Shown here: one piece after another, positions 4,142 to 11,021 of the stretch
How the letters are laid out: each line of letters begins with the position of its first letter
Position numbering within the stretch: position 1 is the stretch's first letter
Source of the DNA: Fibrobacterales bacterium
GTDB taxonomy: Bacteria; Fibrobacterota; Fibrobacteria; Fibrobacterales; CADBQJ01
DNA length: 44,357 nt
Direction: 5' to 3'
NCBI GenBank assembly: GCA_017650365.1
Contig: JAGCEZ010000076.1
Span: 1-44,357 of the forward strand
Notes under the pieces: generated by a model
What the model was told of the DNA's origin: nothing
Databases searched by the model: none
What the model saw: the letters and a program-made list of their open reading frames with translations, nothing else
Made by a program: the position numbers and the translations under genes

Positions 4142-5317
4142 ATGAGCATGCTCTGCCTGTACAACGGGACCCTCCACACCGGTCTGACCGTCCTCCACCA
4201 GCACACCCTGATCATCGAAAACGGGCGCATCAAGGACGTTCTGAGCAACGAACGCTTCAAGAAGATGCAGCTCCCCGACGACGCGAAGGTGATCGACCTC
4301 CAGCAGATCAACGTCGCCCCCGGCCTCATCGACACGCACATCCACGGCAACGGCGGCTACGGCACCGAAGACGCCTCCACCGACAGCATCCTGGGGATGT
4401 CGCAGGAGCTGCTGAAGTACGGCGTCACCGGCTTCCTCCCCACCCTCTACCCCATGCCCGAGGCCGAGTTCCTCAAGGCCGTGGCCGCCGTCCGCGACGC
4501 CATGGGCCGCGAAGAGGGCGCGCGCATCTTCGGGATGCACCTCGAAGGACCGTTCATCTCGCCCGCCCGCCTGGGCGTGCAGCGCCCCGAGACCGTCCGT
4601 CCGATCGACGTCGGCTTCATGCAGAAGCTCTGGGACATCTCGGAGGGGAAGATCTCGCTGATGACCGTCGCGCCCGAACTGGAGGGGCTGCGCGACCTCG
4701 CCTTCTTCTGCATGGAACGCGGGATCGTCCTGAGCGCGGGCCACACCGACGCCTCCTACGACGACATGGTCGAGGCCATGGCCATCGGCGTCCGCCACGC
4801 CACCCACCTCTTCAACGCCATGCACAAGCTGCACCACCGCGACCCCGGCGTCGTCGGCGCGCTGCTGCTCCACATGGACGTCTCGTGCGAAATCATCGGC
4901 GACGGCTACCATGTCCACCCCAGCCTCGTCCGCCTGCTCATCCGCAACAAGGCCGCCGACAAGGTGGTGCTCGTGACCGACGCCCTCAAGCCCACCGGCC
5001 AGTCGGAAGGACCGCTCTTCGCCAACAACGAGGAGGTCTACCTCTCCGACGAGCACATCTTCCTCCGCAAGAAGGACAACGTGATCGCCGGCTCGTCCCT
5101 CACGATGGACCGCGGCGTGCACAACCTCTACAACTTCGGCGTCTCGCTCGACATGGCCTTCCGCATGGCCACCGCGAACCCCGCCAAGATCATCGGCCGC
5201 GACAACCACTTCGGCTACCTGCTCCCCGGCATGGCGGCCGACATCGTGGTGATGGACTACGACTTCAACGTCAAGCTGACCATCGTCGGCGGCGAGATCA
5301 AGTACAGCACGATCTAG
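4142..5317 (+). CDS. nagA: N-acetylglucosamine-6-phosphate deacetylase
   Basis: A 391-residue amidohydrolase that removes acetate from N-acetylglucosamine-6-phosphate, the committed step in amino-sugar catabolism and cell-wall amino-sugar recycling. Recognisable motifs are DTHIHG (Asp64, His66, His68), HLEGPF (metal-ligand Glu135), SAGHTDAS (His201), ATHLFNAM (His222) and VTDA, corresponding to the active-site set of characterised NagA proteins, including the Glu/His/His metal site. Length matches the family (about 380-400). A second in-frame ATG lies two codons in (4148). The secreted protein gene starts 17 bases downstream and may be cotranscribed. A ROK kinase lies upstream and a chitinase downstream in the same neighbourhood, fitting an N-acetylglucosamine supply, but no nagB is in the window. 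Confidence 0.95.
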   Translation: MSMLCLYNGTLHTGLTVLHQHTLIIENGRIKDVLSNERFKKMQLPDDAKVIDLQQINVAPGLIDTHIHGNGGYGTEDASTDSILGMSQELLKYGVTGFLPTLYPMPEAEFLKAVAAVRDAMGREEGARIFGMHLEGPFISPARLGVQRPETVRPIDVGFMQKLWDISEGKISLMTVAPELEGLRDLAFFCMERGIVLSAGHTDASYDDMVEAMAIGVRHATHLFNAMHKLHHRDPGVVGALLLHMDVSCEIIGDGYHVHPSLVRLLIRNKAADKVVLVTDALKPTGQSEGPLFANNEEVYLSDEHIFLRKKDNVIAGSSLTMDRGVHNLYNFGVSLDMAFRMATANPAKIIGRDNHFGYLLPGMAADIVVMDYDFNVKLTIVGGEIKYSTI

Positions 5318-5334: not shown

Positions 5335-7236
5335 ATGAAAGACGCACGGAAATCCAGCCGCGGCGCCGTGTTGGCGTCGCTTCTCTGCTTCGCGGCCGCC
5401 TCGGCGCAGGAGATCGCCCTCCCGGCCAACTGGCCGGCCGACGAGATGGTCTTCGGCTACGCCCTGGGAGTGCGGGAAGACGCCATCGCAGGCTCCGAAC
5501 TAACCAGGAATCTCTACGCCTATCCCCACCGCAACGTCACCATGCAGCTGAACATGCAAGGGGAAATCGACACCGCGACGACCGTCAACGCAATCTGGGA
5601 ACTCGCCCAGATGTGGATTCCGCAAATCAGAGGATGGGACGGACACGAGAACGAACGCCATACCGGCATCGGGGTGACGATGTCGGTCTTTTCGGCGGAA
5701 ATCGGCGAAGCGCAGGTCGATGTCCGCGACGAACGCGTCCGAGTCCTGCGCAAGATGAACGACACGGCGACCATCGCCCGCTGGTTCTCCTGGATGGAAA
5801 CCATCCAGTCGAAAATCAACTACTACACCGATCAGGACGCGCTCCCCAACCCGATAGTCGTCCTGGAACCGGATGTCTGGGGAACCGTTCTCCAGGCCCG
5901 TTTCCATTTCGAAAACGAACCGTGCGACAGCTCCTGGTGCGAAGGCAAGACCTGGGGGCAGGTGCTCGACTTCCGCGTCCCCCTGAACGAAGGGCTCGCC
6001 GCGGCCAATTCCCCGATCGCCGGCGAAGTGGCCGCCAATCCCGCGCTCTACCCGCAGACGGTGGCCGGCCTCGCCCGCGCCATGGTCCGGGCCGTGCGCC
6101 AGGCGATGCCCGGAGCCAACCTCTTTTCGCACGTCTCCACCTGGGCCGTCTACGCCGACGGCTGCACCGACGGCGGCTCCCCGGAAAACCTGACCAACGA
6201 CAACCTCCGCGCGTTCAAGTCGACCGAGAGCATGGTCAACTGGCCCGCGGGATACGTCAAGCTCTCCGCGATGGCCAACGTCCGCTTCTACCGCGAACTC
6301 TACGGCTGGAACGCCGAAACCGGCGGCCATCTCGACGACGCCGTCTGGCCCGACGGCTTCGCGGTCGAGAAATACCCCTACGACGCCGGCATGGTGCGGG
6401 ACTCCGCCGGCACCGGCCACTACCGCGCCCAGAGCGCCTATCCGATGCCCGGCGCGGGCACGGACGCCTTCTTCTGGAATCAGACCCAGATGAACCGCTG
6501 GATTCTCTGGGCGAAAACGCTTTCGCAGGGATCGCGCATGCCGCTCCTCGCCTACGGCGTTCCGGTGGGGAACGGTTCGCTGCCCGACGAGCCCTTCGCC
6601 TGGAAGGACACCTTCGTCGACTGGCTCTTCAGCAGCTCCAACTGGGGCGACCGGTACGTCTGGGATCCCGACAACTGGACCAAGTTCAAGAACGCCGGCT
6701 TTGTCGGCATCTTCGCGTCGCGCGCGGGATGGCCGGCCACCGGCACCCATTGGAACGCGCGCACCCAGAGGAGCGGCGACGGCACGGGCTGCGGCTCGAC
6801 CATCAACGGCGTCGCGGTCTCCTGTCCCGTTTCGACCGCAGGCGACGGTCTTTTCTTCGTCTCGCAGTTCAAGGGGCACGACCGCTCGCTAGCGCCGATC
6901 CCGGTGACCTTCGACGAAGAGGCCTTCGACCTCTACACCGGCTTCTGCCAGACCCCGCCGGAAGAGGAGGACGACGCCGGAACGCGGGCGGACGTCGTGC
7001 GCGCCGCCGTCGTCGGCGCGGCGTTCGTCCGCGGCGGGCGGGTCTTCGTCCCCGCGAGCGGACAGGTCGCCGAGGCGAAGGTCTACGACCTCTTCGGACG
7101 CGAACGGCTCGATTTCGGAGGCGCCCTCGAAAACGGCATGCTCTCCTTCGACGCCTCCGCGCTCCCCGTCGGGACCTATTTCGTCTCCGTGACGGCGGAC
7201 GGCGCCCGTTCCGTGCAGAGCGTCCGGCTGAAATGA
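5335..7236 (+). CDS. Secreted protein with T9SS-like C-terminal sorting domain, unknown catalytic type
   Basis: A 633-residue protein with a signal peptide (basic MKDARKSSRG, hydrophobic core, cleavage near residue 24 after SA). The last about 80 residues (VYDLFGRERLDF, then LPVGTYFVSVTADG and a terminal basic strand VQSVRLK) form a beta domain resembling type A sorting domains of type IX secretion. The body (25-540) is aromatic-rich, with NPIVVLEPDVWG (Glu178, Asp180), many Trp and Asn, and a few Cys. The LEPD segment recalls catalytic acidic strands in some glycoside hydrolases, such as the EPD of GH6, but I cannot assign a family. A strong Shine-Dalgarno (GGGGAGGA) precedes the ATG. It follows nagA by 17 bases, so a secreted carbohydrate-active role is reasonable but inferred. 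Confidence 0.8.
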   Translation: MKDARKSSRGAVLASLLCFAAASAQEIALPANWPADEMVFGYALGVREDAIAGSELTRNLYAYPHRNVTMQLNMQGEIDTATTVNAIWELAQMWIPQIRGWDGHENERHTGIGVTMSVFSAEIGEAQVDVRDERVRVLRKMNDTATIARWFSWMETIQSKINYYTDQDALPNPIVVLEPDVWGTVLQARFHFENEPCDSSWCEGKTWGQVLDFRVPLNEGLAAANSPIAGEVAANPALYPQTVAGLARAMVRAVRQAMPGANLFSHVSTWAVYADGCTDGGSPENLTNDNLRAFKSTESMVNWPAGYVKLSAMANVRFYRELYGWNAETGGHLDDAVWPDGFAVEKYPYDAGMVRDSAGTGHYRAQSAYPMPGAGTDAFFWNQTQMNRWILWAKTLSQGSRMPLLAYGVPVGNGSLPDEPFAWKDTFVDWLFSSSNWGDRYVWDPDNWTKFKNAGFVGIFASRAGWPATGTHWNARTQRSGDGTGCGSTINGVAVSCPVSTAGDGLFFVSQFKGHDRSLAPIPVTFDEEAFDLYTGFCQTPPEEEDDAGTRADVVRAAVVGAAFVRGGRVFVPASGQVAEAKVYDLFGRERLDFGGALENGMLSFDASALPVGTYFVSVTADGARSVQSVRLK

Positions 7237-7258: not shown

Positions 7259-8116
7259 ATGGGAAACGCGAAAAAACTGGTTCTGTCGGCCCTCGCCTGC
7301 GCGGCGCTCGCCGCCTGCGGCGGGGAGAAGGGCGAATCCGCGAAGGCGGCTCCGGCCGCGGCGAAGTCGGCCGTGGTCTTCTATTCCCAGAACGGGGCGA
7401 CGCGCTCCCTGGCGAAGATCTTCGCCGAGGCGACCGGCGCGGACCTCGTCGAAATCAAGCTCGCGAAGCCCTACCCCTCCACCTACGACAGCACCATCGC
7501 CGCCGTGCGCGAAGAGCGCGAGACGGGGCGCTGGCCCGAGCTGGAGAACGCGAAGCCCGACCTGGCGAAGTACGACACGCTCTACCTCGGCTACCCGATC
7601 ATGTTCGGGGCCGTCCCCCCGCCGATGCGCGCCTTCCTCGACTCCAACGACCTCTCGGGCAAGACGGTCGTCCCCTTCTGCACCTACGGCAGCGGCGGGC
7701 GCAAGGCCAGCGCCGAGGAGATCAAGACGCTGGAGCCCAAGGCCGACGTGACCATCGCGATGGGGATCTCCAACCGCCGGATCACGGCCGAAAACGGGAC
7801 CGAGACCGCCCGCGGCGAAGTGTCGCTCTTCCTGGAGAACCTGCGCGCCGGAAAGACCGAAGAGGTCCTCTGCGGCGGCTACTCGGAACAGCGTCCGCTG
7901 ACCGCCGAAGACTCCGCCGTCTTCGCCAAGGCGACCGAGCCCTACGCCTACCTGGGCCTGAAGCCGCTCTCCGTCTCCACGCAGGTCGTCGCCGGCATGA
8001 ACTACCGCTTCGCGTGCGAGATGAACGCCTTCGGCGGCCCGGCCAAGCAGGTCGACGTGAAGATCTTCCGCCCGCTCCCCGGCCGCGGCGAGCCCGAACT
8101 CGTCGTCGTGGAATAG
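7259..8116 (+). CDS. Lipoprotein: flavodoxin domain fused to stefin-like cystatin domain
   Basis: A 285-residue predicted lipoprotein. The signal peptide ends in the lipobox LAAC (Cys20). A short Ala-rich linker leads to a flavodoxin-fold domain (about 37-200): SAVVFYSQNGATRSLAKIF is the FMN phosphate loop, and YDTLYLGYPIMFG and FCTYGSGG are the flavin-contact loops of the Flavodoxin_4 type. The last about 80 residues (205-285) resemble an animal-type stefin. They have an N-terminal CGG trunk, a PLTAED segment, the QVVAG inhibitory loop (242-246) followed by MNYRF, and VKIFRPLPGRGE, which matches the second (LP) hairpin of stefins. In stefins these three elements wedge into papain-like proteases. 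Anchorage would be in the periplasm or on the cell surface. The ATG at 7259 is favoured over a TTG two codons upstream. Confidence 0.85.
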   Translation: MGNAKKLVLSALACAALAACGGEKGESAKAAPAAAKSAVVFYSQNGATRSLAKIFAEATGADLVEIKLAKPYPSTYDSTIAAVREERETGRWPELENAKPDLAKYDTLYLGYPIMFGAVPPPMRAFLDSNDLSGKTVVPFCTYGSGGRKASAEEIKTLEPKADVTIAMGISNRRITAENGTETARGEVSLFLENLRAGKTEEVLCGGYSEQRPLTAEDSAVFAKATEPYAYLGLKPLSVSTQVVAGMNYRFACEMNAFGGPAKQVDVKIFRPLPGRGEPELVVVE

Positions 8117-9476: not shown

Positions 9477-11021
9477 ATGAAAGCCTCGTTTGGAAAGATC
9501 CTCGGCGCGCTGGCCGTCGCGTTCGCGTTGTCCGCGCCCTCCTTCGCCGCCGTCAACATCTCCTGGGTGCCGCCCTACGGCTACAGCGCCAGTCAATCCG
9601 CGGTCCAGAACAGCTGGACCTACAACGGGAAGAGCTGGGGGGTGAAGGACGGCCTCACCTACCTCAACCTCCAGTGGTGGAAGCCCGCCGACGACGGGAC
9701 CCTTTCCTCCGAATCCTACGGCCGCGACAGCACCAAGATCAAGTGGTTCGTCAACTGGGGGAAAACCAACGGCGTGAAGATCCTCTTCTGCCTCTACAAC
9801 CCGCCGAAGAGCGGCGAACACGACTGGAACTGGGCGGCGGCGCGCCAGGTCATCCAAAGCAGCAGCAAGCGCGTCGCCTTCGCCAAGAGCGTCATGGAGG
9901 TGGTCGACCGGTACAATCTGGACGGCGTGGACGTGGACTTCGAATGCAACGAAGACCCGGACCCCGAGGCCTGCAACGCCGACTCCACGGACTACCGGAA
10001 GTTCATGCAGGTGATGCGCGACTCGCTCCACAAGCGGAACAAGGTGCTCACCTACGCGGCGTTCGCCGACGAATGGAACGGGCCGAACACCTCCTGGTAC
10101 GGCAAGCTCGACACCATCGTGGACGCCTGGGCCTCCATGGGCTACGACGACGACGGCTACGAAAAGCAGTATCCCGAACAGCTCCAGGCCGTGCCCAGCC
10201 GTTCGCGCCACAAGTTCGCCATCGGCGTCCCCACGCTCGACAGCTGGAAGAACCACACCGCGGGCGAACAGCTCCGCTGGATCCGCGACAACACCGAAGT
10301 CGGCATCGCCATCTGGGACGTCCGCCTGCTCAACTTCACCGACGACGACGACACGCCCCCCGCGTTCTGGAACTCCGGCGAGGCCTGGTATCTCGCCAAC
10401 GGCATCCGCGAACGCGGCAACTCCTCGTCGAGTTCCATCAGCAGCTCGAGCTCGTCCAGCTCGTCGTCGAGCAGCTCCAGCTCTTCCTCGAGTTCGTCCA
10501 GCTCCTTCTCGAACCAGACGGACTGCGCGACCGTTCCGCTCGCCGGCGTCTTTAACGCACGCAAGGGGAAGACCGGTCTCGCCGGCCACCAGGAGAACAA
10601 CTACGTCTCGCAGGGCGGCGAATGGGCCGCGGGCGACATGGTGATTCCCGTCGGCTGGCCCTGCGACCGCGCGGTCGAGGTCGCCGAATCCGAAAACACC
10701 TGGAACGTCTATCTCGTCGAGCCCTGGCCCTACGACACGCTGATGAACGTCTCGTTCCTGAAGCTCGTCTCCAGCAGCTCGGCCAGCTCCTCCAGCGAAG
10801 GTTCCACGGAAATCTCCGACAAGGCCTTCGCCCTGCCCGGCTTCCGCACGGCGGCCACGGTCTACGGCATCACGGGCAAGGCGCTGCTGGCGCTCCCGGC
10901 GCAGGAATGGAGCTCCGCCGAACAGGTGCGCGACGCGATCCGCGGACAGCTCCCCTCCGGCGTCTATCTCGTCAAGTTCGACGGCGTCTCCGCGGCGGTC
11001 CGCGTTCCCGTGGACCGGTAG
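9477..11021 (+). CDS. Secreted GH18 chitinase with polyserine linkers
   Basis: A 514-residue secreted glycoside hydrolase. Residues 1-24 are a signal peptide (cleavage near SFAA). The GH18 catalytic domain spans about 25-310 and holds the signature DGxDxDxE as LDGVDVDFE with the proton donor Glu156; GH18 enzymes cleave chitin beta-1,4 bonds by substrate-assisted retention. Trp-rich strands (QWWKP, WDVRLLNF) suit a sugar cleft. A polyserine linker of about 29 residues (codons near 10422-10508) leads to a small Trp/Cys domain (about 345-430) of unknown carbohydrate-binding type. A second Ser/Ala linker follows, then a C-terminal beta domain (VYGITGKALLAL and LPSGVYLVKFDG) resembling a T9SS sorting domain. 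Polyserine linkers are typical of Fibrobacter enzymes. It has its own promoter and a strong terminator after the stop. Confidence 0.92.
   Translation: MKASFGKILGALAVAFALSAPSFAAVNISWVPPYGYSASQSAVQNSWTYNGKSWGVKDGLTYLNLQWWKPADDGTLSSESYGRDSTKIKWFVNWGKTNGVKILFCLYNPPKSGEHDWNWAAARQVIQSSSKRVAFAKSVMEVVDRYNLDGVDVDFECNEDPDPEACNADSTDYRKFMQVMRDSLHKRNKVLTYAAFADEWNGPNTSWYGKLDTIVDAWASMGYDDDGYEKQYPEQLQAVPSRSRHKFAIGVPTLDSWKNHTAGEQLRWIRDNTEVGIAIWDVRLLNFTDDDDTPPAFWNSGEAWYLANGIRERGNSSSSSISSSSSSSSSSSSSSSSSSSSSSFSNQTDCATVPLAGVFNARKGKTGLAGHQENNYVSQGGEWAAGDMVIPVGWPCDRAVEVAESENTWNVYLVEPWPYDTLMNVSFLKLVSSSSASSSSEGSTEISDKAFALPGFRTAATVYGITGKALLALPAQEWSSAEQVRDAIRGQLPSGVYLVKFDGVSAAVRVPVDR

Follow-up and report, generated by a model that had tools for sequence, protein, structure and literature searches.

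The type 1 cystatins, or stefins (MEROPS I25), include human stefins A and B and the secreted Fasciola hepatica protein 6i1m, and in their classical form are single domains of about 100 residues with no signal peptide. The sequence-only reading of the DNA described here called them chiefly eukaryotic, which needs qualifying, since bacterial stefins carrying the QXVXG motif, fusions included, have been known since 2009 (Kordis and Turk, PMC2784779). The known fusions comprise a stefin-chagasin protein of Bacteroides fragilis and a triplicated, fused cystatin of Polaribacter. Action on host cysteine proteases was proposed for the bacterial proteins, whose distribution was patchy, and the Fibrobacteres were marked as having neither stefins nor cystatins (PMC2784779). 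Stefins also occur on plasmids of the Persicobacteraceae (Persicobacter JZB09 and Aureibacter pAT1) as compact domains (33–37% identical), single or in tandem. No flavodoxin part or lipobox is seen in these, whereas the protein described here has both. The unfused or tandem plasmid genes (L083, 2465–2767; L082, 2480–3043) are unannotated or labelled "hypothetical protein". The remainder of the present protein has relatives among the Flavodoxin_4 flavoproteins of gut bacteria (3klb with FMN, 4ici and 4j8p), with which it shares the flavodoxin domain at 25–28% identity in structural alignment; the solved flavoproteins, in contrast, have no stefin domain.

The window, by which we mean the whole stretch of 44,357 nucleotides analysed from a Fibrobacterales bacterium (contig JAGCEZ010000076.1), contains a gene in which these two domains are joined behind a lipoprotein leader. 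An open frame was confirmed where the sequence-only reading had placed it (7259–8116), with the following parts:

7259..8116, plus strand: whole gene, encoding a 285-residue lipoprotein with Flavodoxin_4 and stefin domains (open frame; 33 orthologous Fibrobacter fusion loci)
7259..7318, plus strand: lipoprotein signal peptide (residues 1–20) with lipobox LAAC and predicted lipidated Cys20 (sequence; C20 invariant in 26 orthologues)
7319..7366, plus strand: low-complexity tether, residues 21–36 (mean entropy 2.15 bits, the least conserved part)
7367..7846, plus strand: Flavodoxin_4 domain, residues 37–196 (Pfam, PDB phmmer, fold match)
7868..8113, plus strand: stefin (type 1 cystatin) domain, residues 204–285 (phmmer, family profile, fold search)
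7874..7879, plus strand: wedge part 1, the N-terminal trunk glycines G206–G207 (G206 invariant in 26 fusion proteins)
7982..7996, plus strand: wedge part 2, the first hairpin loop QVVAG, residues 242–246 (Q242, A245 and G246 invariant)
8072..8083, plus strand: wedge part 3, the second hairpin PLPG, residues 272–275 (P272, L273 and P274 invariant)

The LAAC leader and its invariant cysteine bear out the lipobox proposed earlier, and the fusion protein fits a bacterial lipoprotein, lipidation being predicted from the sequence. In the AlphaFold model of the full-length fusion, pLDDT is near 40 across residues 1–30; both domains are retained, and confidence drops at their junction. The gene is 68.7% GC (GC3 94%), in line with 67.8% for the window. 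The kind of inhibitor is known; what is new is the phylum, the near genus-wide retention and the architecture. No report of a flavodoxin-stefin fusion was found in the open-access literature (Fibrobacter with cystatin; stefin with flavodoxin). The QXVXG motif is common to these proteins and the stefins of the 2009 survey (PMC2784779). Unlike the patchy stefins of that survey, however, the present ones are found in 68 of 80 Fibrobacter genomes (genus g6 being taken as Fibrobacter), are predicted to be lipid-anchored and are mostly joined to a flavodoxin.

Is the C-terminal domain a stefin? In a phmmer search of 177,635 PDB sequences, residues 204–285 aligned with human stefin A along 74 residues (E=3.7e-4 to 1.2e-3); the alignment takes in the trunk, QVVAG and LPG and pairs PLPG with the SLPG of stefin A. 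A family profile (A2, from 25 related domains) reached the F. hepatica stefin 6i1m (4.7e-8) and stefin A (2e-6). On the other hand, Pfam Cystatin (PF00031) gave the window protein 12–14.7 bits, under its gathering score of 22.2, and the claimed cystatin match thus stands by profile and by stefin A and falls short by Pfam. The miss looks like a limit of the model's sensitivity, because a homologous Fibrobacter relative with three stefin domains (L067) passes at 1.8e-13. Standard annotation would consequently report a flavodoxin only, and bacterial stefin domains are probably under-counted, since the cut-off misses the Fibrobacter family.

Modelled alone by AlphaFold, the stefin domain reached a pLDDT of 92.5, with a predicted helix (216–232), then four main strands, the QVVAG loop joining the first and second of these; the model shows the cystatin fold of a helix wrapped by an antiparallel sheet. 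In a fold search of the PDB, the first 43 matches were all of the cystatin superfamily except 7cd7, a GFP-binder complex, and stefins came first (6i1m from Fasciola; 1stf, human stefin B with a cysteine proteinase; and 5zc1; probability 1.00). The best TM was 0.73, with Foldseek E-values of 3e-3 and weaker, which are modest for so small a domain. For the full-length model, the top matches listed by Foldseek were flavodoxin-type proteins only. That the likeness to stefins is due to chance, or to convergence of the loops, is a reading favored by the Pfam score, but it is extremely improbable against the phmmer match (about 4e-4), the profile (about 5e-8), the cystatin-dominated fold search and the Pfam match of L067.

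The domain shares with the type 1 cystatins the fold, the trunk glycine, the QVVAG loop and the LPG second hairpin, and like the stefins it shows no evident cystatin-type disulfide pairs. Compared with stefin A, its helix region is about six residues shorter and its last strand and C-terminal tail are truncated. Unlike the stefins, it lies at the C-terminal end of a 285-residue lipoprotein, and the product is therefore a stefin-domain protein rather than a classical stefin. Its trunk is not a free end, as it is in single stefins, and the flavodoxin preceding Gly206 may for this reason hinder it.

The flavodoxin domain was correctly recognized from sequence: residues 38–165 matched Flavodoxin_4 (PF12682) at E=7.2e-21 and 74.7 bits, well above the cut-off of 24, phmmer against the PDB returned 4j8p (3e-17) and FMN-bound 3klb (1e-13), and the fold match to 4j8p had a target-normalised TM of 0.81. 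The presumed FMN-site motifs are SQNGAT, GYPIMFG and PFCTYGSGG, the loop motifs are conserved in the alignment of 26 orthologues, and the domain is accordingly taken to be a putative FMN binder. It may be just a scaffold to which the stefin was joined, and its role may be that of a spacer, of an unrelated enzyme or of a partner coupled to inhibition. It is not needed for the stefin's task, whatever that is, since stefin lipoproteins without a flavodoxin occur in Fibrobacter.

All three parts of the inhibitory wedge had been claimed for the stefin domain, and sequence, fold and conservation agree on them. Across 36 fusion proteins, mean entropy is 0.10 bits at the ten wedge positions and 0.71 in the remaining domain, a difference matched by 15 of 100,000 random site sets (p=1.5e-4) and 16 of 100,000 block-wise permutations (p=1.6e-4). 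The trunk glycine, QXVXG and the second hairpin are invariant or nearly so among the fusions. Only the trunk as originally written, CGG, has to be amended: its first glycine (G206) is invariant, but the cysteine is variable (C, M, A, L, V or F). Over 65 pairs with dS<1, dN/dS has a median of 0.056 in the stefin and 0.094 in the flavodoxin domain. Conservation of the wedge argues for selection on the protease-facing surface, short of proof of inhibition; against this, the wedge could be kept for folding. One orthologous fusion, in genome G139 of genus g7 (L071, 3591–3848), has a loop degenerated to KDSAGTGF and may be a naturally occurring form without inhibitory activity.

The stefin domain is present in 71 of 168 Fibrobacterota genomes, belonging to three of 41 genera. 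About 68 of the 168 have the fusion: 65 of the 80 in g6, two in g7 and the window genome, whose family (f1) differs from that of Fibrobacter. Genus g6 is equated with Fibrobacter through its member G116, which shares its contig position with a Fibrobacter record (L003). Three of the 71 carriers (G084, G085 and G087) have the domain without the flavodoxin part. A separate scan, in which each species was represented by a single genome, returned 33 loci with 68–84% domain identity; every one of the 33 carried the label Fibrobacter and the fusion architecture, and many came from the rumen or other ruminant stomach samples. Other arrangements include two stefins (L069, L084), three (L067), one alone (L070) and a stefin with Fib_succ_major (L068; Pfam 4e-34), all of them with lipoprotein-type leaders and no flavodoxin. 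In the stefin-only lipoproteins the glycine and QxVxG are retained and the second hairpin is somewhat variable. Some of these five proteins also score with the SQAPI and DUF4333 models. Stefin relatives were absent from the scanned viral contigs and phage collection. A phage record (MT836484; H1, L066) was rejected as a stefin fusion although its match covered 80% of the query, because the region after the flavodoxin differs and has no QVVAG-type motif, and plasmid matches to the full protein covered the flavodoxin part alone.

Where did the window gene come from? Identity to the Fibrobacter counterparts reaches 84% for its stefin domain and 69% for the whole fusion, compared with 51–56% for a core Sua5-like gene of the window. 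The other genome of the window's genus is without the fusion, and the tree places the window sequence on a long branch that it does not resolve. Transfer of the fusion between families is possible. No conserved neighborhood was found across Fibrobacter lineages, and hence no operon partner. In the window, the gene directly upstream (5335–7236) encodes a 633-residue protein with no Pfam match, whose terminal tail resembles a type 9 secretion signal. Farther upstream is a NagA-type amidohydrolase (4142–5317) for which the order's 112 further genomes gave no match; it lies near a GH18 protein (9477–11021), and these are possibly acquired amino-sugar genes.

Which peptidases would such a stefin encounter? 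The papain-family model PF00112, which can overlook divergent C1 peptidases, found no match in the window genome and matches in six of the 71 stefin-bearing genomes, leaving 65 without a detectable C1 peptidase. Seven Fibrobacter genomes, all of one genus (L085, L086 and five more), encode a divergent C1-like protein that is secreted and bears Cys, His and NSWG motifs; its copies are mutually 90–94% identical. Six of these seven genomes also have a stefin, and they are the six carriers with a PF00112 match. This overlap, and the fact that eukaryotic stefins target endogenous enzymes, could suggest that the fusion protein controls cysteine peptidases that the bacterium itself keeps in its periplasm or secretes. 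However, no C1 peptidase was detected in the window genome or in most carriers, stefin and C1 peptidases show no positive link (across the order the odds ratio is 0.34 with p=0.08, and inside Fibrobacter 1.06 with p=1), and genus g4 has C1 peptidases and no stefin. Acting on an own enzyme is therefore unlikely as a general role. A foreign peptidase, from a ciliate, a plant or an animal, is the most likely target, because most carriers have no detectable C1 peptidase of their own. The host-protease decoy suggested earlier is plausibly one among several possibilities, with peptidases of rumen ciliates and plants at least as plausible as targets. In the rumen ciliate Entodinium caudatum, cathepsins B and F are among the C01A peptidases expressed, and some of its cysteine proteinases have signal peptides (PMC6925433). 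In rumen-fluid cultures with iodoacetamide, a cysteine-protease inhibitor, Fibrobacter rose from 1.9% to 4.9% (PMC6908469), as expected if cysteine proteases harm Fibrobacter; on the other hand, iodoacetamide is not specific and the result is a correlation.

The identity of the domain, its predicted fold, its conservation and its distribution are all supported, as is the finding that in most carriers no C1 target of their own could be detected. From these we infer inhibitory activity, exposure on the outer surface and a foreign source of the target, and we consider it probable that the product is a lipid-anchored stefin on a flavodoxin scaffold that blocks foreign C1A peptidases through its wedge. 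Lipidation of Cys20 would anchor the protein in the membrane, and the flexible tether would hold the flavodoxin-like domain, which in turn would keep the C-terminal stefin at a distance from the membrane. The wedge, formed by the Gly206 trunk, the QVVAG loop and the PLPG hairpin, would lodge in the active-site cleft of C1A (papain-family) peptidases, which it would block reversibly. Such peptidases would come from the surroundings: from ciliates that engulf bacteria or secrete enzymes, from plant tissue or from the animal. Envelope proteins and surface enzymes would thereby be shielded from proteolysis. The protein may be displayed on the outer surface or may face the periplasm. The main text of two Fibrobacter envelope proteome papers mentions neither flavodoxin nor cystatin.

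Could the domain have kept its fold and lost its inhibitory function, so that a flavoprotein of the surface or periplasm now uses it for binding or as a structural part? There are precedents for cystatin folds taking on other tasks (PMC2784779), and G139 keeps the fusion despite its altered loop, which means that a wedge is not essential for the protein to persist. This is nevertheless rather doubtful, since in the other fusions nothing is conserved more strongly than the wedge, with all three segments retained, and the stefin-only lipoproteins also retain the glycine and QxVxG. A different proposal links the two domains through redox chemistry: the flavodoxin would sense or supply electrons and alter either how strongly the inhibitor acts or what state the catalytic cysteine of the target is in. 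C1 peptidases depend on reduced cysteine, and conservation extends to both the fusion and the loop motifs of the flavodoxin. Against it, stefin lipoproteins occur without a flavodoxin, there is no conserved redox neighbor gene, and no conserved cysteine pair obviously bridges the domains (C204 is unconserved, C141 lies in the flavodoxin loop PFCTYGSGG, and C253 is near-invariant and in a predicted strand). The redox link of the earlier reading thus has no support apart from the fusion and is very unlikely.

Blocking of foreign peptidases by an anchored stefin is accordingly the reading we prefer, and the fusion protein, which most of the Fibrobacter species sampled possess, probably protects these bacteria against the protein-digesting enzymes that surround them. 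More tentatively, the genus-wide set of lipid-anchored Fibrobacter stefins, whether flavodoxin-fused, tandem or fused to Fib_succ_major, might amount to a coat against the papain-family peptidases of ciliates and other gut eukaryotes. Bacterial stefins have so far been viewed as rare, patchy emergency inhibitors with no demonstrated role. A near genus-wide, anchored stefin in a major fiber-digesting genus of the rumen offers a stable, cultivable system in which to test bacterial stefins against eukaryotic cysteine peptidases and, if the idea is true, it would be a bacterial anti-digestion coat made from a kind of protein best known in animals.
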